Origin: Kaistia adipata DSM 17808
GTDB lineage: Bacteria; Pseudomonadota; Alphaproteobacteria; Rhizobiales; Kaistiaceae
Direction: 5' to 3'
Length of the DNA stretch: 64,000 bases
Assembly (NCBI RefSeq): GCF_000423225.1
Contig: NZ_KE383992.1
Location: forward strand, 126,971 to 190,970
Of this stretch, positions 18,279-31,867 are shown one piece after another. A program made the translations under genes and the position numbers. Numbering within the stretch: the stretch's first letter is position 1; each line of letters opens with the position of its first letter. The notes under the pieces are model-generated. The model did no database searches. It was not told the DNA's origin and saw only the letters and a program-made list of their open reading frames with translations.

Positions 18279-19484
18279 CTACTTCACCTCGGCGACCGAT
18301 CCCCTGGCGATGAAGCCGTCGACCGTCGCGGCGTCGAAACCGAACTCTTCGAGGATCTCGCGCGAATGCTCGCCGATGCGCGGCGCCGGGCGCTCGATCT
18401 CGGACGGCGTCTTCGACATCTTCACGGCCGGCGCCACCACCTTGACCGTGCCGGCCGTCGGGTGCTCGTAGCTGGTGATCGCGCCGATATGCTTCACCTG
18501 CGGGTCCTGCTCGGCCTGCAGGTGCGTCTTCACCTCGCCGCACCAGATGTCGACGGCGAGCATCGCCTGCATCAGGTCCGCCGTCGTCCAGGCCTTGGTC
18601 AGCGCGGCGAGCTTCTCCCAGATCTCGTCGCGCTTGTCGAACAGGTCCTTCGGGTTGTCATAGACGAGCAGGCTGTCGTCGCCGAGCACGCCGACGAAGC
18701 GCTTGAACGGGCTCATCGCCACCGTCACCCAGCCGTCCGAGGTCGGATAGACGCCGAACGGCGCATCCATGCCGGGATGGCCGATGCCGGATTTCGGACG
18801 CACGAAGTCCTGCTGGAAGTTCATCGCCATCAGCATTTCCTGGCCCTGATGCGCCAGCATGGCCGAGAGCAGGTCGACCTTGATCTCCTGGCCCTCGCCG
18901 GAGCGCTCGCGCCAGTAGAGCGCCGAGAGGATGCCATAGACCATGTTCATGGCGCCGATCTGGTCGGAGAAGCCGGAACCGACCGGCACCGGCGGGCCGT
19001 CGCCGCGGCCGGTCGCCGCCGCGATGCCGGTGAGCCCCTGGATCAGCATGTCCTGGCCGGGCCGCGACAGATACGGACCGCTCTCGCCATAGCCGGAGCC
19101 GGAGCAGTAGATGATGCGCGGGTTGATCTTGGCGAAATCGGCATAGCCGAAGCCGAGCCGCTCCAGCACGCCGGGGCGGAAATTCTGCACCACGACATCG
19201 GCCGTCTCGGCGATCCTGTAGAGGATCTCCTTCGCCTCGGGCGCCTTCAGGTCGAGCGCCAGCGAGCGCTTGTTGCGGTTCCAGGCGAGGAAGTTGGGGC
19301 TCTCCGTGCCACCGACCCAGCGATTGTTGAAGGTGAGCGTGCGGAACAGGTCGCCCTGCCCCGGCCGCTCGACCTTGATCACGTTCGCGCCCATGTCCGC
19401 GAGCAGCTGGGTGGCGAAGGGGCCCTGCAGAAGATGGCTCAGATCGAGGACGGTAACGTCCTGAAGGGCCTTGGCGGCGGTCAT
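18279..19484 (-). CDS. CaiB/BaiF family (class III) CoA-transferase
   Basis: 401 residues. The N-terminal LDLSHLLQGPFATQLLADMGA is diagnostic of class III CoA-transferases. NRNKRSLALDLK and the PGQDMLIQG segment follow; the Asp there (D145) matches the catalytic acyl-forming aspartate of formyl-CoA transferase. The enzyme moves CoA between carboxylic acids. It is the last gene of a nine-gene minus-strand operon that also encodes an importer, an enoyl-CoA hydratase, an SDR and a lactonase, so the acceptor is probably a sugar-derived acid (inference). It lies 58 bp after the lactonase gene. Confidence 0.92.
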   Translation of the reverse strand: MTAAKALQDVTVLDLSHLLQGPFATQLLADMGANVIKVERPGQGDLFRTLTFNNRWVGGTESPNFLAWNRNKRSLALDLKAPEAKEILYRIAETADVVVQNFRPGVLERLGFGYADFAKINPRIIYCSGSGYGESGPYLSRPGQDMLIQGLTGIAAATGRGDGPPVPVGSGFSDQIGAMNMVYGILSALYWRERSGEGQEIKVDLLSAMLAHQGQEMLMAMNFQQDFVRPKSGIGHPGMDAPFGVYPTSDGWVTVAMSPFKRFVGVLGDDSLLVYDNPKDLFDKRDEIWEKLAALTKAWTTADLMQAMLAVDIWCGEVKTHLQAEQDPQVKHIGAITSYEHPTAGTVKVVAPAVKMSKTPSEIERPAPRIGEHSREILEEFGFDAATVDGFIARGSVAEVK

Positions 19485-19542
19485 GGTCGGTTCCTCACAC
19501 TCGTCTTGTCGGCGCGCCCGCCTCGCGGACGGCCGGGGCTGG

Positions 19543-20457
19543 TTAGTCGGTCTTGTCCGCCGAACGGCGCCAGAGCGGCGTGGCGGAGGTGTCGGTGTCG
19601 ATCTTCGTCACGTGCCAGCGGCCGAGATTGGCCGTGTAGAGCGCGGCGCCGTCGAAGGCGATATTGGTCGGATGGGCGAGCACATGCGCGGTCGCGTCCT
19701 CGATATAGATCTCGGCGGCGCCTCCGCCGGCCGGAATCCGGAGCACGCGCGACGGCTCGTAGCAGCCGACGAACAGCGCGCCGGCATCGTCGAAGGCGAG
19801 GCCGTCCGGCAGGCCTGGCAGGTCATCCGAATAGGTCGTCGCCGCGCCGGCCGAGCCATCCGCGCGAAACGCGATGCGGGTGATCCGGCGGGCGAAGGTC
19901 TCGCAGAGGAGGAGCGCGTCGCCTTCCGGCGAAAGCGCCATGCCATTGGCGAAGTCGAAGGGACCGCCATGCCAGACTTCGCCGGCACCGGTCTCGAGGT
20001 CATACGACCAGATCGACGGGCCGGGATCGCTCGGTCCGCGCGTGTCGGAAACATAGAGCCGGCCGCGCGCCCGATCGACGACCGCGTAGTTCGGCACCTC
20101 GATGCCGGGCGCGGTGAAACGCGCCAGCGACCGGTCGGCGAGGTCGAGGCGGAACACCGCGGAATAGCGGGAATCGCAGGCGAACAGCGCCCGGTCGCCG
20201 TCGAAGGCGAGGCCGAGCAGGAAACCGCCCGTCGAGGCGACCTCCTCGATCTCGGACCCGTCCGGCGCGATGCGCAGGATCTGGCCGTTCTCGCTGCCGG
20301 CCCAGACCCAGCCGTCCGGACCGACCGCGACCCCCTCGGGGTGCTGCAGGCGCGGCGACGAGAAGATGCCGTCGAACAGGACGGTGGCCCGCTCCGCCGG
20401 CAGGAGGGTCGGCCCGCCCGTGGTGAAGCCGTGATGCATCGCCGCGCCCGCCATCAT
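19543..20457 (-). CDS. SMP-30/gluconolactonase-family lactonase
   Basis: 304 residues forming a six-bladed beta-propeller of the SMP-30/LRE type. Metal-site signatures are present: PEGVAVGPDGWVWAG, GFLLGLAFDGD, VPNYAVVD, DFANGMALSPEGDALLLCET and GLPDGLAFDDAG. The latter two match the Asn and Asp ligands of the family. It hydrolyses aldonolactones to aldonic acids. Its ATG overlaps the stop of the mutarotase-like gene (ATGA). In this operon it would open the lactone made by the neighbouring dehydrogenase. Confidence 0.88.
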   Translation of the reverse strand: MMAGAAMHHGFTTGGPTLLPAERATVLFDGIFSSPRLQHPEGVAVGPDGWVWAGSENGQILRIAPDGSEIEEVASTGGFLLGLAFDGDRALFACDSRYSAVFRLDLADRSLARFTAPGIEVPNYAVVDRARGRLYVSDTRGPSDPGPSIWSYDLETGAGEVWHGGPFDFANGMALSPEGDALLLCETFARRITRIAFRADGSAGAATTYSDDLPGLPDGLAFDDAGALFVGCYEPSRVLRIPAGGGAAEIYIEDATAHVLAHPTNIAFDGAALYTANLGRWHVTKIDTDTSATPLWRRSADKTD

Positions 20458-21569
20458 GCGCCCCGCGTCAGGAACGCCGCGTCATAGGGCACCGCCAGGC
20501 TGGCGCCGCCCTCGTCGGTCAGGACGAGCTCGGAGCCGCGCGCCTCGATCGAGGCGACCCGCGTCCAGCCCTCGGGCAGCGCGAGGCCGCCGAGGACGTT
20601 GCGGACATCGACCTCGCCGGCCGGATCGAGGCTCAGGAAGGTCGGAATGCCCTCCTCCTGCCACGGGTTCGGCGCGATCGACGCCTTGTGGCCATGGCCG
20701 CCATAGGTGCGGCCCTCCTCGAGGCCGAGCACGCCGATGTGGCGGCCGTTCCACGGCTGATAGTCGCGGCCGCCATTCGAGAACCACATCATGGTGATCG
20801 GGTAATCGGCCGGGCTCTTCAGCGACAGGAAGATGTCGCGCTTGTCCGGCCGGACCGCAGCCGCCCAGCCGAGCGGGTTCGACGGCTCCTCGACCAGCGA
20901 CAGGAAATCCTCGTGCTTCGAGCCGAACGGATAGGTGGTGAGATCCGCCGTGGTGCCGTCGGCGCGCGGCGCCTTGGTCAAATCGGTGAAGCGCGCCGGA
21001 TAGGCGAGCAGCGAGCGGCCCTGCGAGGGATCGGATTCGATCGCGGTCGCCGGCGTCGTGCCGTAGCGCTTCGGCGAGAAGGAGAGCCGGCCGCCGCCGT
21101 CGAAGCGGGTCATGGCGTGGTTGGCGACGGGGATGTCGCCCTCGCCGCCGATGAAGACGTGCCGCTCATAGAGGAACGGATGGCCGTCGCGGACGGTGAA
21201 TTCCTTGACGAGGCGGGCGCCCTGCACGCGCTTCACCAGCTCGTAGCGCGCCGTCTGGCCGCCCTCGGGAAGCGCCGTCACGTCGACGAGCTTCCAGGGC
21301 GAATTGGCCGGCCAGCCATGCAGCGTCGTCACCTCGATGTCACTGGTCGAGAACGGCGCGCAGAAGAAGTCGCCGGAAAGGAAGCGGAGATTGGCGTCGA
21401 TCGATTCGTCCTCGACGATCGCCTTGTCGTCGATCCAGGGCGCCGTGTGCAGCGGCTCGACCGCGCGGCCGTCCCGCGTGACCGCGAAGACGCGGACATG
21501 ACCGCCGCGCAGGTCGAGCGTCGCGCGGACGCCCTTCGCCTCGATGGTATGGAAATTCCCGTCGCTCAT
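20454..21569 (-). CDS. Uncharacterised protein, possibly galactose-mutarotase-like fold
   Basis: 371 residues from the ATG at 21569, which follows GGAAGGAA; a longer frame exists but adds a low-complexity leader. No family is named with certainty. The pattern of short strands (GGHVRVFAVTRDGRAVEPLHTAPW, FLSGDFFCAPFS, FLYERHVFIGGEGDIPVANHAMTRF split among glycines) looks like the beta-sandwich of aldose 1-epimerase-like carbohydrate-binding proteins. The His in ANHAMTRF and the acidic residues could be the active site. It is coupled by 4-bp overlap to the lactonase gene, which supports a role in handling a sugar or its anomers. Confidence 0.5.
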   Translation of the reverse strand: MSDGNFHTIEAKGVRATLDLRGGHVRVFAVTRDGRAVEPLHTAPWIDDKAIVEDESIDANLRFLSGDFFCAPFSTSDIEVTTLHGWPANSPWKLVDVTALPEGGQTARYELVKRVQGARLVKEFTVRDGHPFLYERHVFIGGEGDIPVANHAMTRFDGGGRLSFSPKRYGTTPATAIESDPSQGRSLLAYPARFTDLTKAPRADGTTADLTTYPFGSKHEDFLSLVEEPSNPLGWAAAVRPDKRDIFLSLKSPADYPITMMWFSNGGRDYQPWNGRHIGVLGLEEGRTYGGHGHKASIAPNPWQEEGIPTFLSLDPAGEVDVRNVLGGLALPEGWTRVASIEARGSELVLTDEGGASLAVPYDAAFLTRGA

Positions 21570-21600
21570 TCCGCTTCCTTCCCGTGATGTCGGTTGCGCG

Positions 21601-22383
21601 TCACTCGCCCCGAACGACGAGGCCTCCGTCGACGCGCAGGATCTCTCCCGTGATGAAGGAAGCCCGATCGCTGGCCAGGAACAAGACCGCTTCGCCAACT
21701 TCCGGCGCTTCTCCAAAGCGACCGAGCGGATGGGCGTTGTTCCAGCTGGCGATCAGCCCCTGCGGGTCGGGATGGGTGGCGAAGATCTTCTCGTTCAACG
21801 GCGTCATGATCGTGCCGGGCGCCACCGCGTTGACGCGGATGCCGTGCGGGGCGAGGTCGATCGCCGCCTGCTGGGTCAGCGCGTTGATGCCGCCCTTCGC
21901 CGCCGCATAGGCGGCCCAGCCCTTGAAGCCGGCGAGCGACTGCACCGACGACATGTTGACGACGGCGCCCTTGCCGCGCTTGCGCATCTCGGGGACGCAG
22001 ACGCGCATGCCGCGCCAGACGCTGGAGAGATTGGTGGTGATGACGGTGTTCCAGCTCTCCTCGTCGATCTCGTCGACGACGCCGCCGATCGCCCGCGCGG
22101 CGTTGTTGACGAGGATGTCGATGCCGCCGAAGGCCTCGACCGCCGCCGCCGCCATCGCCTGCATGTCGGCCATCACGGCGACGTCGGTGCGCACGAAGAT
22201 CGCCTCGGCGCCGGAGGCCCGGAGGCCCGCCGCGGTTGCCGAGCCCGCTTCTTCGTCGATGTCGGCCACCACCACGGCGGCCCCTTCCCGCGCCAGCGCC
22301 TCGGCGGAGGCGCGGCCGATGCCCATGGCGCCGCCGGTGACGACGGCCACCCGTCCGGAAAGTTCGGTTCCACGCATGGTCAT
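21601..22383 (-). CDS. Short-chain dehydrogenase/reductase
   Basis: 260 residues with the SDR hallmarks TGGAMGIG, NNAA, NMSSVQS and YAAAK, and the end GGLVV common to sugar-oxidising members. The ATG at 22383 overlaps the stop of the enoyl-CoA hydratase gene (ATGA); a second ATG 6 bp downstream is also possible. In the operon it probably oxidises the imported sugar or an intermediate with NAD(P), giving the lactone or keto-acid used by the other enzymes. Confidence 0.85.
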   Translation of the reverse strand: MTMRGTELSGRVAVVTGGAMGIGRASAEALAREGAAVVVADIDEEAGSATAAGLRASGAEAIFVRTDVAVMADMQAMAAAAVEAFGGIDILVNNAARAIGGVVDEIDEESWNTVITTNLSSVWRGMRVCVPEMRKRGKGAVVNMSSVQSLAGFKGWAAYAAAKGGINALTQQAAIDLAPHGIRVNAVAPGTIMTPLNEKIFATHPDPQGLIASWNNAHPLGRFGEAPEVGEAVLFLASDRASFITGEILRVDGGLVVRGE

Positions 22384-23165
22384 ATTCCCTTGAAGACCGG
22401 ATCACGTTTGTCGAGGAAGGCGTCGATGCCCTCCTGGCCGTCGGCCGTGCCGTAGAGGCGGAACAGCACTTCCTGCTCGAAGCCCTGCGCCACCGGCAGC
22501 GCCGCGTCGGGCCCCTGCCGGATCAGCCGCTTCATCTCGGCCTGCGCCAGCGGCGCCACCTTGAGCATGGCGCGGGCGCGGCCGAGCACCGTTTCCACCA
22601 GCGCCTCGTCGGCGACGCATTCGGCCGCGAGGCCAAGCTGGAAGGCGCGCTCGCCGGTGATGCGGCGCGCCGCCAGCATCACGTCCGAGGCGATGATCCG
22701 GCCGACGGCGCGGGTCAGGCGCTGCGTGCCGCCGCCGCCGGGCGACAGGCCGAGCAGCCCTTCCGGCAGGCCGAGGCGGGCGCTCGTCGCGCAGAGGATG
22801 ACGTCGCAGCAGAGCGCGATCTCGAAGCCGCCGCCGAGCGCATAGCCACGGATCGCCGCGATGGTCGGCTTCGAAAGCGCCTCGAGCTTGTCGAAAATAC
22901 GCCGGCTTTCCAATTGGTAGGCGATGAACTCGGCCCGACGGTTGCCGCGATATTCGGCGATGTCGGCGCCAGCGACGAAGGCCTTCTCGCCCGCGCCGGC
23001 CAGGATGACCACGCGCACGGCCGGGTCGACGGCGATCGCGTCGAGATGCGCCTCGAACTCGCGCATCAGCGGCGTCGACAGCGCGTTCAGCTTGTCGGGC
23101 CGGTTGAAGGTGAGCCGGACGATACCGGGTTCGAGTTCATCGCGAAGAACCAAAGGTTCGGACAT
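22380..23165 (-). CDS. Enoyl-CoA hydratase/isomerase (crotonase) family protein
   Basis: 261 residues. The oxyanion-hole segments AFVAGADIAEY and GYALGGGFEIALCCDV and the catalytic region LGLPEGLLGLSPGGGGTQRL are all intact. Both glutamates used by hydratases (GGGFE and LPEG) are present, so hydratase activity is plausible. It is placed 5 bp after a transporter permease and before an SDR, in an operon with a CoA-transferase. This suggests it hydrates, dehydrates or cleaves a CoA thioester derived from the imported compound rather than acting in fatty-acid oxidation. Confidence 0.88.
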   Translation of the reverse strand: MSEPLVLRDELEPGIVRLTFNRPDKLNALSTPLMREFEAHLDAIAVDPAVRVVILAGAGEKAFVAGADIAEYRGNRRAEFIAYQLESRRIFDKLEALSKPTIAAIRGYALGGGFEIALCCDVILCATSARLGLPEGLLGLSPGGGGTQRLTRAVGRIIASDVMLAARRITGERAFQLGLAAECVADEALVETVLGRARAMLKVAPLAQAEMKRLIRQGPDAALPVAQGFEQEVLFRLYGTADGQEGIDAFLDKRDPVFKGI

Positions 23166-23170
23166 CGGGA

Positions 23171-23998
23171 TCAGCCTTTCACGGCGCCGGCGGTGAGGCC
23201 GGCCACGAACTGGCGCTGCAGGAGGAAGAAGATCGCGATGACGGGGACCGAGATCAGCACCGAACTCGCCATCAGCTCGCCATAGCGGATGCCGTACTGG
23301 CCGATGAAATCGTTCATGCCGACCGGCAGCGTCCGCATCTCCTTGGTCGAGGTGAAGGACAGCGCGAACAGGAATTCCTGCCAGGTGACGATCAGCACGA
23401 ACACGGCGGTGGCGACGATGCCCGGCTTGCAGAGCGGCAGGATGATCAGGAAGAAGATCTTGAACGGGCCGGCGCCGTCGATCGCCGCCGCCTCCTCCAG
23501 CGCCACCGGCAGCCGGGCGAGGAAGCCGCGCAGCATCCAGATCGCCACCGGCAGCGTCACGGTCACATAGGCGAGGATCAGCGAGGTGTAGGTGTTCAGC
23601 AGATCCGCCGCCTTCATCATCTTGTAGATCGGGATGATGATGGCGCTGGCCGGGAACATCTGCGCCACGATGACGAGCACCATCAGGATCGACAGGAGCC
23701 GCATCTGGGTCCGGGTGAACGAATAGGCGGCGAAGAGCGCCAGCGTCACCGTGATCACGACAGTCGAGAGCGAGACGACGACCGAGTTCAGGAAATAGGT
23801 GCGGAACTCCGGCCGGAACGCCGTCAGGTAGTTCTCGAAGGTCGGGTTTTCCGGCCAGAGCCGGGCGGGGATGGCGAAGGGTTCGGCCGCCGGCTTCAGC
23901 GACACCGAGACCATCCAGAAGAACGGCAGCAGGATGACGACACAGAGGCCGAGCTGCAGCAGGAGCAGCAGCAGGCGGTGAGTCCTGGACGGGGTCAT
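23171..23998 (-). CDS. Sugar ABC transporter permease (MalG type)
   Basis: 275 residues with six hydrophobic helices, EAA loop EEAAAIDGAGPFKIFFLIILP and the C-terminal LLQRQFVAGLTAGAVKG. The ATG at 23998 overlaps the stop of the MalF-type gene. It shares overall design, but not close identity, with the permease at 17238. No ATPase follows; the operon continues into metabolic genes. Confidence 0.92.
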   Translation of the reverse strand: MTPSRTHRLLLLLLQLGLCVVILLPFFWMVSVSLKPAAEPFAIPARLWPENPTFENYLTAFRPEFRTYFLNSVVVSLSTVVITVTLALFAAYSFTRTQMRLLSILMVLVIVAQMFPASAIIIPIYKMMKAADLLNTYTSLILAYVTVTLPVAIWMLRGFLARLPVALEEAAAIDGAGPFKIFFLIILPLCKPGIVATAVFVLIVTWQEFLFALSFTSTKEMRTLPVGMNDFIGQYGIRYGELMASSVLISVPVIAIFFLLQRQFVAGLTAGAVKG

Positions 23999-24876
23999 GC
24001 CGCAGCCCTCCGGCTTCCGCGCTGGGTGAGGAAGTAGAGCGTGATCAGGAGCGCCAGCACGACGATCGAGACGACGCCATAGCCGGCCGCCTCGCCGAAG
24101 CGGAACTGGCCGAAGCCGAGCTCGTAGATCTTGGTCGGGAAGATGTGCGTCGAATTCTGCGGCCCGCCGCGGGTCAGTACCCAGATCATGTCGAAATAAT
24201 TGAAGGTCAGGATGGTGGTCAGGATGAAATTGATGGCGATCACTTCCTTCATCGACGGCAGCACGACGTGCCAGAGCCGGCGCGTCGCGCTGGCGCCGTC
24301 CATCTTGGCGGCCTCGATCTGCTCGGCTTCGACGTTCTGCAGCGCCGCGAGGAAGACGACGGTCGAGAACGGAAAGCCCTTCCAGACGGCGGCGATGACG
24401 GCGGCGGCCATGGCGGTCGAACTGTCGGCCAACCAGGCGAGGCCCTGATCGCCGAAGCCGGCGGAAATCAGGAAGGAATTGATGAGCCCGAGCTGCGGGT
24501 CGTACATGAAGCGCCACAGGATGGCGGCGACGACGCCGGGCAGCACCCAGGGCAGCAGCACCAGCGAGCGCATCAGGCCCTGGCCGGGCAGTTTCTGGTT
24601 CAGGAGCAGCGCGCAGAGGAAGCCGAACACGTTCTGCAGCACCACGACGGCGACCGTCCAGACAATGGAATTCCGGACGATCTGCGCGAAATCGGCGCTA
24701 CCAAAAATCTTCTGGTAGACGGCGAGGCCGACGAATTTCGGCGTCGGATTGATGAAGGAGGTCGAGTAGAGGCTCTCGATGACCGTGCCGATCATCGGGT
24801 AGTACATCAGCACCGCGACCAGCAGGACGGCCGGCGTCACGAAGATCCAGGTGAGCCAGCGATCGCGTTTCAGCAT
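23995..24876 (-). CDS. Sugar ABC transporter permease (MalF type)
   Basis: 293 residues with six transmembrane segments. The EAA loop is IEAAKMDGASATRRLWHVVL. The ATG at 24876 follows the palindrome-rich gap after the binding-protein gene. It forms the membrane pore with the MalG-type protein encoded next. Confidence 0.92.
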   Translation of the reverse strand: MLKRDRWLTWIFVTPAVLLVAVLMYYPMIGTVIESLYSTSFINPTPKFVGLAVYQKIFGSADFAQIVRNSIVWTVAVVVLQNVFGFLCALLLNQKLPGQGLMRSLVLLPWVLPGVVAAILWRFMYDPQLGLINSFLISAGFGDQGLAWLADSSTAMAAAVIAAVWKGFPFSTVVFLAALQNVEAEQIEAAKMDGASATRRLWHVVLPSMKEVIAINFILTTILTFNYFDMIWVLTRGGPQNSTHIFPTKIYELGFGQFRFGEAAGYGVVSIVVLALLITLYFLTQRGSRRAAA

Positions 24877-24935
24877 GAGTTTCGGTTCTTCTCGTTTTTG
24901 GGCAGCGGACGCGGAGCGGGCGCCGTCCCGGGCAG

Positions 24936-24998
24936 GAACCCGGGATCCAGGCGGCCTGAAACAGGCCCGGATGGATCCCCGCCAAGGCGGGGATGGCG
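24936..24998. repeat. GGATCC-flanked palindromic repeat
   Basis: GGGATCCAGGCGGCCTG faces CAGGC.CGGATGGATCC, followed at once by the perfect small hairpin TCCCCGCCAAGGCGGGGA. It lies in the 182-bp gap between the binding-protein and MalF-type genes; a further CCCCTCCCG...CGGGAGGGG hairpin follows near 25020-25055. As at 5968-6094, a hairpin block sits immediately after a binding-protein gene, where it may trim downstream expression. Confidence 0.6.
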
Positions 24999-25058
24999 CG
25001 GCGGAGCTCCCCTGCCCGGCCCCCTCCCGCGGACGGGAGAGGACCGGGAGGGGGAACC

Positions 25059-26276
25059 TCAGTTCAGCCCGTCGATGGCGGCGCAGGCCTTCTGCGCGGC
25101 CTCGGCCGGGTTGGCGCCGGAATAGATGTCCTGCGCCAGCGTCACCTCGATGTCGGAAACCTCGAGATAGCGGGCCGAGAGCGGACGCGGCTGCGCGTTC
25201 TGGAGGTGCGTCATGATCTTGTCGGCGCCCTTGCGGTTCGCCTCGAGGAAGGTCTTGGCCGCCTTGACGTTGGCCGGCACCAGATCGACGACCGCGCCGT
25301 TGACGTCTTCCTTGGTCAGGAACTGGATGAACTTCCAGGCCGCTTCCTGATGCGGCGACGACTTGTAGACGACGAGGTTCCAGCCGCCATAGGTGCCGAC
25401 CGGGGTCTTGCCGGCGGGGGCCGTGCCGTTCTCGAAGTCCCAGTCGATCTTCGACTTCTGCAGCGTCGGCTGCTCCAGCGCCGGCCAGAACTCGACGCCG
25501 AGCGAGCCGTTCAGGAACAGTTCGCGCATGTCGCCCGACGAGGCGTTCAGGATGCCCTTCGGCGCGAACGGCACCAGCGACTGCAGATAGGCGAGCGCCT
25601 CGACCGATTCCTTGCTGGTCAGCGCGCACTTGCCGTCCGCGTCGAGAACCTTGCCGCCATTCGAGAAGATGAAGGAGTCCATGACGACGACGGTATCTTC
25701 GCCCTTGTGGCCGAACAGGCCGACGCCATACTTGCCCTTGGCCGGGTCGGTCAGCTTCTCGGCCGCCGCCTTCAGGCCTTCCCAGGTGGCGATCGAGGCC
25801 GGGTCGATGCCGGCTTCCTTGAACAGCGCCTTGTTCAGGAACGAGAACTGCCAGACGTCGACGTTGAACGGGATGCCGTAGAGCTTGCCGCTGTAGTTGG
25901 CCGAATCCCAGGCACCCTTGAAGAAGGTCTCGGGCGAGATGCCGGCGGCCTTGGCCTGCTCGTCGAGATCGGCGATCGCGCCGGCCTCGGCGAAGGCGCC
26001 CTGCCAGATCTGGTCGACGGTCGAGACGTCGGGCGCGTTGCCGCCCTGCACGGCGGTCAGCAGGCGCTGCTGGAACTCCGGATAGGGGATGGTCGTGACT
26101 TCGATCTTGATGCCGGGATTCTCGGCCTCGAAGCGCTTGACCGCCTCCTGCTGGTACTGGCTCAGGCCGGATTCGGTCTGCTGGTTGTCCCAGAACTTGA
26201 GCGTGATGGTCTCCTGCGCGATGGCCGCGGGCGTCAGGCCCGCCAGCATCGTCGCGGCGAGAAGCAGTTTCCTCAT
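25059..26276 (-). CDS. Sugar ABC transporter substrate-binding protein (CUT1 type)
   Basis: 405 residues. A signal peptide ends after AIA at residue 20 and mature TITLKFWDNQ follows. The ATG at 26276 follows GGGAGGGAACC; an upstream ATG at 26303 was rejected. Solute-binding-family stretches include GNAPDVSTVDQIW, YGIPFNVDVWQFSFLNKALFKEAGIDP in part, and GTYGGWNLVVYKSSPHQEAAWKF. It lies between the composite regulator and the two permeases. Ligand unknown, presumably a sugar or sugar-like compound. Confidence 0.9.
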   Translation of the reverse strand: MRKLLLAATMLAGLTPAAIAQETITLKFWDNQQTESGLSQYQQEAVKRFEAENPGIKIEVTTIPYPEFQQRLLTAVQGGNAPDVSTVDQIWQGAFAEAGAIADLDEQAKAAGISPETFFKGAWDSANYSGKLYGIPFNVDVWQFSFLNKALFKEAGIDPASIATWEGLKAAAEKLTDPAKGKYGVGLFGHKGEDTVVVMDSFIFSNGGKVLDADGKCALTSKESVEALAYLQSLVPFAPKGILNASSGDMRELFLNGSLGVEFWPALEQPTLQKSKIDWDFENGTAPAGKTPVGTYGGWNLVVYKSSPHQEAAWKFIQFLTKEDVNGAVVDLVPANVKAAKTFLEANRKGADKIMTHLQNAQPRPLSARYLEVSDIEVTLAQDIYSGANPAEAAQKACAAIDGLN

Positions 26277-26330
26277 GATGGTTCCCTCCCAGTTTCTCAA
26301 CAAAATTGCCCGGGCAATCCGCCCGGCAGG

Positions 26331-28091
26331 CTAGGCTGTCTTCCGGTTCCCGACCGGCCGGTCACTCCGGGTCGCCACCCCCTCTTCCGGCTCTTCGTCG
26401 GCGAGCGTGATGCGCATGCCGAGCGAGGCGAAGGCGAGCCGATCCGCCGGCAGCGAGGCGGAATCCGTGATCAGGTCGTCGACGGCGCCGAGGCCGGCGA
26501 TGCGGTGACTGGCTTCGACGCCGACCAGCGAATGGTCGGCCATCACCACCACCTCGCGCGAGGCGTCGACGAAGCGCTTGGCGGCGAGCGCCAGCCGCTC
26601 GTCGGTGGCGGAGGGCCCGAAATGCGGCGAGATGCCGTCGACCGAGAGAAAGGCGCGGTCGACCCGCATCGTCTCGAACAGCGCGCCGAGGCTCGGCCCG
26701 ACGAGGCAGCGATCCTTTGCCTGGTATTCGCCGCTGGTCATGATCAGCTTCAGCCCGGGCCGGCCGGAAAGCCGCTCCATGACGTCGACGGCGTTGGTGA
26801 CGATGGTGATGCCGCTGCGCCCGGTCAGCTCGTCGGCGAGCAGCGTCGAGAGCGTGCCGCCATTGATCAGGATGGTGTCGCCGGCACGCACCAGGCGCGC
26901 CGCGCTCTTCGCGATCAGCCGCCGGATCGCGGCGATCTCGCGGGCGATGCCGGATTGCGGCGCCGCGATCTTCAGCTCGAAGCCGAGCGCCTCGGCCCGC
27001 TCGCGCATGGCGCGCGCCATGTTGCGGTACCAGTCATGCGCCGGATAATGCGGCACGAAGCCGATGGCGCGACGCGGACCGACGGAGCGGACGAAAGCCG
27101 GACGCTCGGCGGCGCCGAGGATCGCCGCCTCGGCTTCCGGCGCCAGCACCCAGCCATTTCCAGACTTGAGGTAGTAGCGGTCGAGCGTCTCCGGCGTGAC
27201 GACGACATGCGGCGTGCGGATCTCGTCCGGCATCGCGCTGCCATGCAGCGCCGCGGCCAGCGTCTCGACGGCGCGGATGCCGACGATCTCGGGAAAGAGC
27301 GCCGCGGTCGCCTTCAGCTTTCCGCGCGAGGCCAGGGCGTCGAACAGGGCCGCGCCCTCGCCGCCGACGGAGAACGCGCGGACCGCGTCGGCGCCGGCCT
27401 TGTCGGAGGCCTCGATCGCCGCCAGCACCGAATGGTCGTTGACGCCGAAGATCACGTTGATGTCCGGATAGGCGGCGAAGGCATCGAGGCTGGCCCTGAG
27501 CGCGATGCGGAAGCTGCCCTGGCCGTCGACCCGCCACGGCCGCACCGTACCCCGGAACGTCTCGCCGAAACCCTTGATGAAGCCGTCGCAGCGGGCGCGC
27601 GTGTTGGGCAGGTTCTCCAGCGAGACGAGCAGGACGCGCGCCTCGGCGATCCCACCCGACAGCATCCGCCCCGCGGCGCGGCCGAGCTCGCGCCCGGCGG
27701 TGAAATTGTCGGGACCGAGATAGACGCCGCCTTCCTGCGGCGAGGATTCGGCGAGGAAGGGGATGCGCCGGCGCTTCGCCAGCATCCGGAGCGTGTCGGC
27801 GCCACGCCCTCCGATCGGCGGCAGCACGATGGCGTCGACGCCCTCGACCTCGTCCTGCAGCGCGTTTTCACGCGGCGCCGGGGCCTCGGCCTTGTCGGCG
27901 CCAGCGACCGGGAGCAGCGCGCCGCCATGGGTGCGCTCAATCCGCCCCTCTTCCGCCAGGCGGACGATGTCCCGGCGAATCGTCACGCTGGAGACGCGGC
28001 CGATGCGCTGCGCGATCTCCAGCACGGAGACCTCCTCGCCCGCCTGGGCGAGGATCTCGATGATCCGGTCTTCGCGCTTCGATTTGATCAT
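26331..28091 (-). CDS. Composite regulator: DeoR helix-turn-helix, periplasmic-binding-like segment, DeoR sugar-phosphate sensor
   Basis: 586 residues from the ATG at 28091, more than twice a normal DeoR protein. Residues 3-61 are a DeoR helix-turn-helix (REDRIIEILAQAGEEVSV, SSVTIRRDIVRLAEEGRIER, THGGAL). Residues about 82-310 look like a sugar-binding periplasmic protein without its first strands: VDAIVLPPIGG, VYLGPDNFTAGRELGR, INVIFGVNDHSVLAAIEA. Residues 341-400 look like the missing N-terminal part (RAIGFVPHYPAHDWYRNMA). They run straight into a DeoR C-terminal sensor (401-560): AGDTILINGGT, TIVTNAVDV, DRAFLSVDGI, MADHSL. It may sense both a free sugar and a sugar phosphate. In-frame ATGs at 28121 and 28169 are alternative starts. 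It heads the operon below. Confidence 0.8.
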   Translation of the reverse strand: MIKSKREDRIIEILAQAGEEVSVLEIAQRIGRVSSVTIRRDIVRLAEEGRIERTHGGALLPVAGADKAEAPAPRENALQDEVEGVDAIVLPPIGGRGADTLRMLAKRRRIPFLAESSPQEGGVYLGPDNFTAGRELGRAAGRMLSGGIAEARVLLVSLENLPNTRARCDGFIKGFGETFRGTVRPWRVDGQGSFRIALRASLDAFAAYPDINVIFGVNDHSVLAAIEASDKAGADAVRAFSVGGEGAALFDALASRGKLKATAALFPEIVGIRAVETLAAALHGSAMPDEIRTPHVVVTPETLDRYYLKSGNGWVLAPEAEAAILGAAERPAFVRSVGPRRAIGFVPHYPAHDWYRNMARAMRERAEALGFELKIAAPQSGIAREIAAIRRLIAKSAARLVRAGDTILINGGTLSTLLADELTGRSGITIVTNAVDVMERLSGRPGLKLIMTSGEYQAKDRCLVGPSLGALFETMRVDRAFLSVDGISPHFGPSATDERLALAAKRFVDASREVVVMADHSLVGVEASHRIAGLGAVDDLITDSASLPADRLAFASLGMRITLADEEPEEGVATRSDRPVGNRKTA

Positions 28092-28100
28092 ATTGATCAC
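28084..28100. promoter_or_regulatory. Paired TTGATC direct repeats, site 1 (candidate DeoR-type operator)
   Basis: TTGATCATATTGATCAC is two TTGATCA copies 9 bp apart. It overlaps the ATG (28091) of the composite regulator, fitting autorepression. A matching site lies at 28172-28188. Confidence 0.5.
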
Positions 28101-28171
28101 AATTCCCTTGCTGACAGCCATTATCGGCAAGGCTTTCCGGCATTCAAGGCCGGATTGCCGTATGGGCAATA

Positions 28172-28188
28172 TTGATCGAGTTGATCAA
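28172..28188. promoter_or_regulatory. Paired TTGATC direct repeats, site 2 (candidate DeoR-type operator)
   Basis: TTGATCGAGTTGATCAA again has two TTGATC copies 9 bp apart, 88 bp from site 1, in the divergent region between the regulator and the nucleoside hydrolase gene. A single GATCAAATT follows at about 28205. It could serve both transcription directions. Confidence 0.5.
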
Positions 28189-28331
28189 ATCACGCGATCC
28201 CGGCGATCAAATTGGAGAAAGCCCGCGCGGACCGAATAAAGCGCCGGAGCGACCACTCGGCCCCTGTTCGGCCATGGCGATATGCTGGATCCTGTGCCGA
28301 CCGGATTTGAGACCCATCATCAGGACAGAGA

Positions 28332-29333
28332 ATGCCCAAGACCGCTTCCAGCCCAGGCCCCATCAAGGTCATCTACGATACCGATCCCGGCATCGACGAC
28401 GCGATGGCGCTGCTCTTCCTCGAATATGCGCCGGCGATCGACCTCGTCGGCATTACCACCGTGCTCGGCAACGCCTCGATCGAGACGACGACGCGCAACG
28501 CCCTGTTCCTGAAGCAGTATTTCGGGATCCAGGCCCCGGTGGCGCGCGGCGCCGACCGCCCGCTGGTGCTCGAGCTCGCCGACGAGCCGCCCCACCACAT
28601 CCACGGCCATAACGGCCTCGGCGACGTGCCGATTCCGGAGACGCTCTCGGTCACCGAGCACGAGCTCCCGGCGCATCGCTTCATCATCGACATGGTGCGC
28701 AAGCATCCCGGCGAGATCACCATCGTCGCCGTCGGCCGGATGACCAATCTGGCATTGGCGCTGCGCGAGGACCCCGGCATCGCCGACCTGGTCAAAGAGA
28801 TCGTCATCATGGGCGGCGCCTTCGGCTATTCCGGCCATTCCGGCAATGTCACGCCCGTCGCCGAGGCCAACATCATCGGCGACCCGCACGCCGCCGACGA
28901 GATGTTCGCGGCCAGCTGGCCGATCGTCGTGGTCGGCCTCGACGTCACGCAGGAATGCGTGATGTCCACCGCCTACATGCAGGAACTGCGCGAGAAGGCC
29001 GGCAAGGCGGGCCAGTTCTGCTGGGACATCTCGCGCGTCTACGAGGATTTCTACCGCGCCGCCACCGGCATCGACGGCATCTTCGTGCACGATTCCTCGG
29101 CTGTCGCCTATCTGCTCGACCCGAGCCTGTTCACCACCCGAACCGGCCCGATCAAGGTGGTGACCGAAGGCATCGCCATCGGCCAGACCATCCAGAAGCC
29201 GTCGACCCGCTCCTTCCCGCCCGGCGTCTGGGACGGCCTGCCGGATCACACCATCTGCACGGATGTCGACGGAAAGCGCTTCCTCGACCTCTACTTCCAG
29301 ACGATCGTCGACGGCGCCGCCGCGCGGGCGTGA
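28332..29333 (+). CDS. Nucleoside hydrolase (inosine-uridine preferring type)
   Basis: 333 residues. The N-terminal calcium-site signature DTDPGIDDAMAL (residues 16-27) is diagnostic for this family. NGLGDV, VAVGRMTNLALAL, IVIMGGAFGYSGH, EANIIGDPHAAD and the late HDSSAVAYLLDP, with its active-site His and Asp, are also present. The enzyme hydrolyses nucleosides to base plus ribose in the cytosol. It is divergent from the composite regulator and upstream of a SorC-type regulator and deoC, so it may feed pentose into that pathway. Confidence 0.93.
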   Translation: MPKTASSPGPIKVIYDTDPGIDDAMALLFLEYAPAIDLVGITTVLGNASIETTTRNALFLKQYFGIQAPVARGADRPLVLELADEPPHHIHGHNGLGDVPIPETLSVTEHELPAHRFIIDMVRKHPGEITIVAVGRMTNLALALREDPGIADLVKEIVIMGGAFGYSGHSGNVTPVAEANIIGDPHAADEMFAASWPIVVVGLDVTQECVMSTAYMQELREKAGKAGQFCWDISRVYEDFYRAATGIDGIFVHDSSAVAYLLDPSLFTTRTGPIKVVTEGIAIGQTIQKPSTRSFPPGVWDGLPDHTICTDVDGKRFLDLYFQTIVDGAAARA

Positions 29334-29616
29334 GATCGGAGGGCGGCCACCGGCCGCCCTTCTCCGCTTTACGGGAGACTTGTCGCCCCCAGTTCTCCAC
29401 CGGGACCGTGCCACCCTCCTCCGCCACCCGCGCGAAGGCGGCGATCCATGCAACCGCGCCCTTCGCCGGTGAACCTCCCGATACCTCAGCTGGATGGATC
29501 CCGGCTCGGAGCCGGATGACGGCGAGCGTGGGGCAAAGGCCGGAGGGAGACTTCCCGACACCGGCTCATGCGACCTTTGTACCATCCTGCCCAGCCATCA
29601 CGCAGCGCTCGCGTTC

Positions 29617-29740
29617 CATCATCCTGAGGTGTCCGAGCGCAGCTCGGGCCTCGAAGGACGCACCGTCTCGGAGTAGCCGTCAGCTGCACAGACGCCGTGC
29701 GTGCTTCGAGACGCCCCTTCGGGCCCTCAGCATGATGAGG
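29617..29740. repeat. Paired CATCCTGAGG inverted repeat, second copy
   Basis: CATCATCCTGAGG at the left faces CCTCAGCATGATG at the right, with CTCGAAGGACGCA and GTGCTTCGAGACG inside, the same arrangement as at 18131-18243. It accounts for much of the 536-bp gene-free stretch 29334-29869; the rest has a few short hairpins and the regulator's operator, and I see no coding potential. Confidence 0.75.
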
Positions 29741-29831
29741 GCGGTGCTCCGCCCAAGTCCCCTCGGAGAATAGTGAAGGGACGCGCGGGCCCATCCCGCG
29801 CATTGACTCTGCCGAAACGACAGCCTATTTC

Positions 29832-29868
29832 ATTTCACATAAGTGATCGTCAATCACATATGTGAAAT
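29832..29868. promoter_or_regulatory. Double palindromic operator before the SorC-type regulator
   Basis: TCACATAAGTGA (29835-29846) and the perfect palindrome TCACATATGTGA (29854-29865) are 19 bp apart. ATTTCA and TGAAAT at the outer edges make the whole 37 bp one larger, nearly perfect inverted repeat centred at 29850. It ends 1 bp before the regulator's ATG, consistent with autoregulation. Confidence 0.75.
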
Positions 29869-29869
29869 C

Positions 29870-30874
29870 ATGGCGAGCCCCAGCCCGATCCGCACGGCGA
29901 GTGACGAGCAGCGCGAGCACCTGATGGTGCAGGTCGCGAAGCTCTATTACGACCTCGAGCGGACGCAGGGCGAGATCGCGACCGAGCTCGGCCTGACCCG
30001 CTGGCAGGTCGCGCGGCTGCTGCGCGATGCGCGCGAGAGCGGCATCGTCCGCATCGCCATCGTGCCGCGCGCCCAGCGCCTGCCGGCGCTCGAAGCCCGC
30101 CTGCAGACCGCCTTCTCGCTGCGCGAGGCGATCGTCGTGCCGGCGATCGGCGACGGCGCCGTGGCCCAGGACGCGGTCGCCCAGGCGGCCGGGCAATATC
30201 TCGCCACGCTGAGCCCCCGTCCCGGCCTGATCGGCGTATCCTGGGGCCGGACCATGGCGGCGGTCGCGCACTGGCTGCCGCCCGGCTGGAACGACGGCGT
30301 TCGGATCGTCCTGATGAACGGCGCGACCAATTCGAGATCGGCGCGGCTCGCCACCAACACCGTCGCCGAGCGCTTCGCCGAAAGCGGCAACGGCACGGCG
30401 ACGCTGCTGCCCGTGCCGGCGATCGTCGGCCGCGCCGAGACACGCGAGGTGCTCGAAGCCGACCCGGTCATCGCCGACGTGCTGGCGCTCGCCGAGGAGG
30501 CGCCCGTCGCCTGCTTCGGCCTCGGCGGCATGGCGGGCTCCGTCCATATCGAATCCGGCTACCTGACCGACCGCGACGTCGACGGCCTCGCCGAAAAACA
30601 CGCGGTGGGCGACCTGCTCGGCCGCTTCATCGACGCGGAAGGCAAGATCGCCGATCCGGCGCTCGACGCCCGCACGATCGGCCTCGCGCCGGAAAAGCTG
30701 CGCGACAAGACGCATGCGATCGGCGTCGCCGCCGGCAAGTCCAAGCACGCCGTCGTCCTCGCGGCGCTCAAGGCCCGTTACGTCAACGTCCTCGTCACCG
30801 ACGAGGCGACCGCCCTATTTGCTCTATCCGAACTCGCCCTTTCCGAAGCCCGGGAGAAGACCCATGCCGGCTGA
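29870..30874 (+). CDS. SorC/DeoR-type (sugar-binding) transcriptional regulator
   Basis: 334 residues. The N-terminal helix-turn-helix (about 22-60) reads AKLYYDLERTQGEIATELGLTRWQVARLLRDA in two halves. The large effector domain has GLIGVSWGRTMAAVA and LMNGATNSR, and ends with IGVAAGKSKHAVVLAALKARYVNVLVTDEATA split into the family pattern. This is the type to which Bacillus DeoR and CggR belong, with sugar-phosphate effectors. It overlaps deoC by 11 bp, so the effector is probably deoxyribose-5-phosphate (inference). The ATG at 29870 was preferred to the GTG at 29843, which lies inside the operator. Confidence 0.88.
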   Translation: MASPSPIRTASDEQREHLMVQVAKLYYDLERTQGEIATELGLTRWQVARLLRDARESGIVRIAIVPRAQRLPALEARLQTAFSLREAIVVPAIGDGAVAQDAVAQAAGQYLATLSPRPGLIGVSWGRTMAAVAHWLPPGWNDGVRIVLMNGATNSRSARLATNTVAERFAESGNGTATLLPVPAIVGRAETREVLEADPVIADVLALAEEAPVACFGLGGMAGSVHIESGYLTDRDVDGLAEKHAVGDLLGRFIDAEGKIADPALDARTIGLAPEKLRDKTHAIGVAAGKSKHAVVLAALKARYVNVLVTDEATALFALSELALSEAREKTHAG

Positions 30875-31856
30875 CGGCTCCACCAAGGCTCCGCCGCTCT
30901 CCAATGCCCTGACGCGCAATGACGGCACGCCGCTCCGGACCGACTGGTTCGAGGGCGCGCAGGTCAACACCTCCGCCGCCGAGCGCCGCGCGAGTACACT
31001 GACGACGCGGCGCACGGTGAAGAAGGAATACCAGGCCGCCTGGCTGGTGAAGGCGGTGACGCTGATGGACCTGACGACGCTCGCCGGCGACGACACGCCC
31101 GGCCGCGTGCACCGGCTCTGCATGAAGGCGCGGCGGCCGTTCCGCGACGACCTGGTCGAGGCGCTGGGGCTTGCCGGCGATCCGCCTGTCGTCGGCGCCG
31201 TCTGCGTCTATCCGACCATGGTCGCCCCGGCGGTCAAGGCACTCGCGGGTTCCGGCATTCCCGTCGCCTCGGTCGCCACCGGCTTCCCGGCCGGCCTGAC
31301 GCCGCTCAAGCAGCGGCTGGAAGAGATCCACTACGCCGTCGGCGAGGGCGCGCACGAGATCGACATCGTCATCACCCGCGCGCATGTGCTGAATTCCGAC
31401 TGGCAGGCGCTCTATGACGAGGTCGCGGCGATGCGCGAAGCCTGCGGCGAGGCGCATCTGAAGGCGATCCTCGCCACCGGCGACCTGAAGACGCTGCGCA
31501 ACGTCTACAAGGCGTCGATGGTCGCCATGCAGGCCGGCGCCGACTTCATCAAGACCTCGACCGGCAAGGAAGACGTCAACGCGACGCTGCCGGTCAGCCT
31601 CGTCATGTGCCGCGCCATCCGCGACTACGAGGCGGCGACCGGCTTCAAGATCGGCTTCAAGCCGGCCGGCGGCCTTCGCACCGCCAAGGACGCCATGGCC
31701 TGGCTGATCCTGATGAAGGAAGAGCTCGGCAATCGCTGGCTCGAGCCCGACCTCTTCCGCATCGGCGCCAGCTCGCTGCTGGCCGACATCGAGCGGCAGA
31801 TCGAGCACTACGTCACCGGACGCTATTCCTCCACCATCCGTCACGCGCTCGCCTGA
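30864..31856 (+). CDS. deoC: Deoxyribose-phosphate aldolase
   Basis: 330 residues, with about 70 residues before the aldolase barrel, longer than the roughly 250-residue bacterial form but similar to the longer DERA types. DLTTL is the barrel start. The Schiff-base lysine K230 is in DFIKTSTGK and the second catalytic lysine K266 is in GFKPAGG. It cleaves 2-deoxyribose-5-phosphate to glyceraldehyde-3-phosphate and acetaldehyde. The ATG lies within the last codons of the regulator gene. The aldehyde dehydrogenase gene 11 bp downstream would remove the acetaldehyde. Confidence 0.95.
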   Translation: MPADGSTKAPPLSNALTRNDGTPLRTDWFEGAQVNTSAAERRASTLTTRRTVKKEYQAAWLVKAVTLMDLTTLAGDDTPGRVHRLCMKARRPFRDDLVEALGLAGDPPVVGAVCVYPTMVAPAVKALAGSGIPVASVATGFPAGLTPLKQRLEEIHYAVGEGAHEIDIVITRAHVLNSDWQALYDEVAAMREACGEAHLKAILATGDLKTLRNVYKASMVAMQAGADFIKTSTGKEDVNATLPVSLVMCRAIRDYEAATGFKIGFKPAGGLRTAKDAMAWLILMKEELGNRWLEPDLFRIGASSLLADIERQIEHYVTGRYSSTIRHALA

Positions 31857-31867
31857 GGGGACCGAAC

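Follow-up and report, generated by a model that had tools for sequence, protein, structure and literature searches.

A DeoR-family regulator from Kaistia adipata with a probable circularly permuted sugar-binding domain between its two halves

The regulator gene, its family and its operon

The window, i.e., the whole stretch of 64,000 nucleotides of Kaistia adipata DNA that was analysed, carries on its minus strand a regulator gene (26331..28091) that starts with an ATG at 28091, terminates with a stop codon at 26331, and encodes a protein of 586 amino acids with no internal stops. A long plus-strand frame over the same gene was rejected as antisense; the conserved domains sit in the minus frame. 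Pfam places an HTH_DeoR domain at residues 6-60 (27912..28076, minus strand; 44 bits against a cut-off of 21) and a DeoRC domain at residues 390-544 (26460..26924, minus strand; 128 bits against a cut-off of 31.8), and the order along the chain reads HTH_DeoR, putatively permuted Peripla_BP_4, DeoRC. Four blocks fill the space between the two outer domains, all on the minus strand. Variable linker 1, residues 62-81 (27849..27908), has a mean pairwise identity of 0.16 and no invariant position among its 20, and is followed by the body of the binding domain, residues 82-310 (27162..27848). Variable linker 2, residues 311-340 (27072..27161; identity 0.21, no invariant residues), leads to residues 341-400 (26892..27071), which are the putative displaced N-terminal part of that domain. 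The stretch of residues 384-402 (26886..26942, minus strand), where a match to Peripla_BP_4 positions 1-56 ends and DeoRC starts, is proposed to be a helix shared by both domains. The preliminary description of this locus had set the boundaries at residues 3-61, 82-310, 341-400, and 401-560; these fit the Pfam matches as well as the conservation blocks, the limits of the latter having been chosen from those same boundaries. None of the eight Pfam families found in the window protein at E ≤ 1 is a LacI helix-turn-helix.

A scan with two short motifs over a collection holding one genome per species (84,980 species) identified at least 39 motif-bearing loci with the regulator. Thirty-five of them belong to records named Alphaproteobacteria or to genera taken as such, including Kaistia, Bauldia, Rhizobium, Shinella, Sinorhizobium, Microvirga, Roseibium, Actibacterium, and Jannaschia; three are found in Vibrio and one in a metagenome-assembled genome (MAG) labelled Exiguobacterium profundum. 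The Vibrio copies suggest a transfer between classes. The family is unevenly scattered over whole-genome samples: the regulator is present in 10 of 28 genomes of the taxonomic family (including one fragment at a contig edge), in 11 of 397 genomes of the order sample (one partial), and in the phylum sample solely in its own genome, 1 of 398, when the best three candidates per genome were scored at E 1e-50. The alignment used below holds 37 members, i.e., 35 of the 39 loci together with the window protein and L015; it omits L026 (a near-duplicate of L025), the fragments L027 and L053, and L039, in which a stop breaks the frame. L028 is included and lacks its very N-terminus owing to a contig end. 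Identity of the members to the window protein goes down to 35%, and several of the 37 are near-duplicates, so that they are not 37 independent lineages. HTH_DeoR, Peripla_BP_4, and DeoRC are matched in each of the 37 at E ≤ 0.001, an architecture wider than the two-domain HTH_DeoR/DeoRC plan throughout. The homologues of the full architecture that the preliminary description had proposed to look for are therefore at hand, as a family that shares the whole domain order.

Downstream of the regulator, and likewise on the minus strand, lie the genes for an SBP_bac_1 binding protein of a transporter (25059..26303), ABC permease 1 (longest open frame 23995..25629, probably starting near 24880), ABC permease 2 (longest open frame 23171..24517, probably starting near 24000), a protein of the enoyl-CoA hydratase/isomerase family (ECH; 22380..23165), a short-chain dehydrogenase (SDR; 21601..22383), a conserved protein of a family without a name (longest open frame 20454..21716), and an SMP-30/gluconolactonase-like protein (19543..20457). 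The next gene on the same strand, after that for the SMP-30-like protein, encodes a CoA-transferase of family III (18279..19484). The operon at 18279-26303 pairs a sugar-type ABC transporter with an enoyl-CoA hydratase, an SDR, an SMP-30-like protein, and a CoA-transferase III.

As a rule, the regulator gene is followed by those for the transporter binding protein, two permeases, ECH, SDR, the orphan protein, the ATPase, and SMP-30, in this order. Counting genes on the strand of the regulator with at least half of each query covered, the transporter binding protein and both permeases are found in all 39 loci, the SDR in 38, ECH in 36, SMP-30 in 33, an ABC ATPase in 32, and the orphan protein in 31; ten loci have the CoA-transferase and ten a second solute-binding protein. 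The absences partly reflect the limited DNA of a locus (L053, for example, spans 4 kb). In Shinella HZN7, where the regulator is annotated as a “substrate-binding domain-containing protein”, two further genes come after the usual operon genes, one for an extracellular solute-binding protein and one for a CoA-transferase. The three Vibrio loci (L050, L052, and L056) combine a regulator of 35% identity with a similar operon, in which SMP-30 is not matched. No ABC ATPase was found in the locus DNA of the six loci L018-L023 (from Kaistia, two MAGs of Bauldia, and an alphaproteobacterial MAG), and the ATPase of these transporters may be supplied from elsewhere. Among the best 25 of 72 NCBIfam matches for ECH and the best 25 of 229 for the SDR, the sole model above its cut-off is “glucose 1-dehydrogenase”, a broad subfamily, for the SDR. 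The product of 20454-21716 gave no match in NCBIfam (two copies) or Pfam (three copies), and its Shinella copy gave no match to a solved structure; the Vibrio copy has one weak Pfam match at E 0.095. By these searches it is an orphan family tied to the operon. As a whole, the gene content suggests that a carbohydrate-like substrate is handled by a route linked to CoA.

A putative operator, made up of two GATC pairs in tandem with a spacing of 9 bp, is located at 28174..28208, ~85-117 bp upstream of the ATG, and a third pair with the same 9-bp spacing (28086..28098) lies over the start codon. Within the 64-kb window, AT-flanked GATC pairs occur at three places only, all of them in 28086-28208. 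Upstream of the gene, 28 of 33 loci have a pair of GATC sites 9-10 bp apart; for comparison, such pairs occur in 76 of 2231 other windows of 250 bp and in 24 of 3300 shuffles. L027, L028, and L053 were left out of the count for having too little upstream DNA. With L025, L026, and L039 added, of which only L039 has a pair, the count becomes 29 of 36. The seven loci lacking a pair include all three Vibrio loci, in which the upstream GATC sites are spaced by 20 or 30 bp. Tandem-repeat motifs are described in a passage of PMC3870299 for the DeoR-family RhaR regulators. Drawing on the conserved operon, the GATC repeats, and the tandem motifs of RhaR, it is likely that the regulator controls its own gene and the operon; by analogy, the control would be repression rather than activation. 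The intergenic region that holds the GATC repeats also holds the start of a nucleoside hydrolase gene. This gene belongs to a divergent plus-strand group at 28332-34261, which further encodes a protein with a “Sugar-bind” domain, which we take to be a SorC-type regulator, a DeoC-type aldolase, and an aldehyde dehydrogenase.

Order and pocket of the binding domain

Pfam finds Peripla_BP_4 in the window protein in two stretches. The best match covers residues 83-284 and corresponds to positions 54-256 of the 258 in the profile, and residues 343-397, when searched in sub-stretches, match profile positions 1-56 with 25.4 and 29.3 bits (E 1.2e-5 and 8.2e-7) in two different cuts, scores that do not reach the curated whole-protein cut-off of 35.1 bits. 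By these matches, the Peripla_BP_4 domain is complete in sequence, with its start in its middle. As judged from the profile, residues 82-310 are the counterpart of strand 3 through the C-terminus in RbsB-type binding proteins, residues 341-400 would supply strand 1, helix 1, strand 2, and helix 2, and linker 2 (311-340) is the connection of the natural C-end with the natural N-end of the putative binding domain.

The same order is seen throughout the family. From 30 binding proteins retrieved with PF13407 we built an HMM and ran it over the 37 members; in all of them the body comes first and the N-terminal part second. Along with the three Pfam matches in each member, this shows that the finding is not a chance one. 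The match of the body starts at model positions 51-57 in 35 members and at 38 and 96 in the other two; the match of the segment starts at model positions 1-9 and falls from residue 320 onward. The segment matches have E < 0.01 in 14 members and 0.01 or worse in 23, with positive bit scores in 34 and negative ones in three, and a few members show chance matches of similar strength, such as L031 with 0.6 bits elsewhere against 0.5 bits for the segment. Among 30 ordinary DeoR proteins, the best score of the same kind is 1.1 bits (L116, residues 174-270 of 289), within the C-terminal domain.

Restoring the natural order improves the matches. The re-ordered window protein aligns with Peripla_BP_4 positions 1-256 in a single stretch with 84.1 or 92.2 bits, depending on which of two joins is used, against 80.5 bits over two stretches in the native order. 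When an HMM of the re-ordered family was compared with the 30 binding proteins, the mean score was 23.8 bits, against 20.5 bits for the body alone, 21.8 bits for the native order, and 22.2 bits for the best of 20 column shuffles of the segment; it exceeds the body alone in 24 of the 30 binding proteins and the native order in 28, and the native-order HMM too gains 1.3 bits over the body alone. Among solved structures, the best match of the native protein is 7e7m (E 1.5e-9), and that of the re-ordered protein is E. coli RbsB, 1dbp, at E 2.3e-12 (3.1e-9 in the native order), with the re-ordered alignments beginning at residue 19 of 1dbp and residue 4 of 2ioy. The segment profile by itself gave no significant match to a solved structure (best E 0.14); two of its ten matches are binding proteins, at the expected place (14-55 and 25-63). 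A search of 385 genomes of the class for the junction of C-end with N-end outside the regulator family, with the best eight candidates per genome at E 1e-25, returned solely the regulator's own genome.

The linkers 62-81 and 311-340 are variable in the 37 members and the blocks between them are conserved. At the other end of the segment, no member has a gap within residues 339-402; residues 390-397 are common to the Peripla_BP_4 1-56 match and the DeoRC match, and the binding-protein HMM carries the segment match of the window protein to residue 400. We infer from this that the two domains would share a helix, helix 2 of the binding domain continuing as the first helix of DeoRC.

The ribose contacts of RbsB given in a passage of PMC3676853 are N13, F15, F16, D89, R90, R141, N190, D215, and Q235, and F164 appears as a further pocket residue in a table of PMC2630998. 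These residues were mapped by hand counting along the alignments with 1dbp (native order) and 2ioy (re-ordered). D89, R90, R141, N190, and D215 fall on E115, S116, R167, N218, and E245 of the body. N13, F15, and F16 fall on H352, W354, and Y355 of the displaced segment, a mapping that rests on the 2ioy row and its numbering in common with RbsB, as the 1dbp alignment begins at residue 19. All eight positions are invariant in the 37 members. In the same manual mapping, Q235 corresponds to L265, which is Leu or Phe in the members, and F164 to G190, which is Gly. The probability of finding eight of ten contacts on invariant positions is 5e-7 (hypergeometric; 33 invariant among 289 positions), and that of three out of three in the displaced segment is 6e-4, both calculated with kinship ignored. 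The simplest reading is that both pieces form a single ligand cleft. The ligand would be carbohydrate-like, as the pocket hints, and degraded through CoA thioesters, as the operon hints.

The complementary profile ranges, their swapped order, and the conservation of both argue that this part of the regulator is probably an RbsB-type binding domain that was circularly permuted in nature, the two pieces of which would be packed into one domain within one chain. The proposal of the preliminary description, a permuted binding domain inserted between the DeoR halves, is supported by the profile order, the HMM, the re-ordering, and the pocket positions.

The same sequence evidence would also result from a domain swap, in which the displaced segment of one chain would fill in the binding domain of the next subunit, so that the sensor exists in the oligomer only. 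The gap-free junction with DeoRC and the variable 30-residue linker permit either arrangement, and there is a precedent in PMC6335823, part of which describes a ribose-binding protein (RBP) forced into swapped dimers by domain insertion. Nevertheless, a linker of 30 residues would probably suffice to close the domain in a single chain and nothing demands a swap, and we regard this arrangement as unlikely, albeit deserving serious attention.

In another reading, the gene holds two partial binding domains that arose by tandem duplication, the second being a 60-residue remnant that merely links to DeoRC. Tandem duplication with subsequent trimming is one plausible way to circular permutation, and the weakness of the segment match in many members agrees with such a remnant. 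On the other hand, the pieces are complementary (profile positions 54-256 and 1-56) with almost no overlap, the variable linkers hold no leftover of other domain parts by the binding-protein HMM, except in L015, where the body matches from model position 38, and the invariance of H352, W354, and Y355 at pocket positions is not expected of a remnant. This makes two partial domains quite improbable. That residues 341-400 are only the linker helix of an ordinary DeoR sensor and residues 82-310 a domain complete by itself, which the preliminary description had held against its own proposal, is barely credible: the end of the segment from residue 390 does fall in the DeoRC profile, but 30 ordinary DeoR proteins have no comparable match, the body of the window protein lacks profile positions 1-53, and the segment also provides three invariant pocket positions.

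The DeoRC domain and the proposed relay

In UlaR and LacR, residues of the GTT and Asp-x-x-Lys type bind the phosphorylated effector. All 30 ordinary DeoRC domains examined have the Lys of Asp-x-x-Lys, which none of the 37 members has (position 522); for the second Thr of GTT (position 414), the counts are 28 of the 30 and only two of the 37. The Asp of Asp-x-x-Lys is kept in 34 members, and the general DeoRC residues G412, T432, N433, G454, D519, and D543 in most or all of them. E455, D497, and E498 are among the family-specific invariant residues of the domain. Mean pairwise identity is 0.52 for DeoRC and 0.49 for the binding domain, and 14 of 158 DeoRC positions are invariant. Because the canonical residues are lost and the domain is still constrained, DeoRC would be either a relay or oligomer domain or the sensor of something else.

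These results bear on the further suggestion of the preliminary description that the regulator may be a dual-input repressor, in which the permuted domain senses the free sugar and DeoRC its phosphate. Such a device is compatible with the permutation, and a DeoRC domain as conserved as the binding domain may still bind something. However, the Lys is gone in every member and the second Thr is replaced in nearly all, and no sugar kinase was found among the scanned genes of the Kaistia operon or in the annotation of the Shinella HZN7 operon. The permuted binding domain of the preliminary description is supported; sensing of a sugar phosphate by DeoRC is not supported in the form proposed, and the dual-input repressor as a whole appears distinctly doubtful.

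The reading that we favour, and consider probable on the evidence from sequence, is a DeoR-family regulator in which a permuted RbsB-type (type I) sugar-binding domain lies between HTH and DeoRC and which would serve as an operon repressor with a helix relay. In this permutant, the binding domain would run from strand 3 to the natural C-terminus, through the 30-residue linker into the natural first two strands, and helix 2 would then pass gap-free into the first helix of DeoRC. The HTH would occupy the tandem GATC-centred repeats of the promoter and repress the regulator's own gene and the downstream operon. A small carbohydrate-like ligand of the operon would shut the cleft lined by H352/W354/Y355 and E115/S116/R167/N218/E245. 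The shared helix is the place where the closing cleft could pull on DeoRC; its movement would shift the DeoRC oligomer, and the DNA would be let go.

A more tentative proposal goes one step further. The natural and conserved permutation may itself be an allosteric device, in which the fold was opened between helix 2 and strand 3 and helix 2 was welded to DeoRC, with DeoRC acting as a relay free of sugar-phosphate sensing or sensing another metabolite of the operon. A CoA thioester is one possible candidate for the latter, given the CoA enzymes of the operon and the ISOCOT fold that a passage of PMC10580937 states for DeoRC.

Relation to known systems

The component families of the regulator are known, and we have not seen their order described in open-licence papers, where a word-matched literature search returned no description of it. 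Like members of the DeoR family of the GlpR/AgaR/DeoR type, the regulator has HTH and DeoRC at its ends, is encoded by the leading gene of an operon, and is preceded by a tandem-repeat operator, which is putative here. It differs from them in ~300 extra residues between the ends, which include the probable permuted binding domain, and in the absence of the canonical DeoRC Lys and of the second Thr of GTT.

In the LacI/GalR family, an HTH is fused to a type I sugar-binding fold, and the joining of these two elements is shared by the regulator. In contrast to LacI/GalR proteins, the HTH is of the DeoR type, the fold appears permuted with the body before the N-terminal part, a DeoRC domain is added, and the best matches by sequence among solved structures are ribose-binding transport proteins. 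With these RbsB-type periplasmic proteins (Peripla_BP_4) the regulator shares the fold, as judged by the profile, and the eight contact positions that are invariant in its family. Unlike in the periplasmic proteins, the fold sits inside a regulator and its first 56 profile positions are shifted to the end.

Protein engineers permute binding proteins and insert them as switches. Passages of PMC6335823 and PMC6079105 describe cpGltI, a permuted binding protein that serves as an insert, and binding proteins fused to DNA-binding domains, one of which is a DeoR. Those permutants and chimeras are designed, whereas the arrangement in the Kaistia regulator is natural and conserved; it looks like an evolved version of the engineers' design, in which the pocket, the weld, and the target operon are all conserved. 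The regulator offers a natural test of two questions: how the closure of a cleft reaches a DNA-binding domain, and what becomes of DeoRC when sensing has passed to a different domain.
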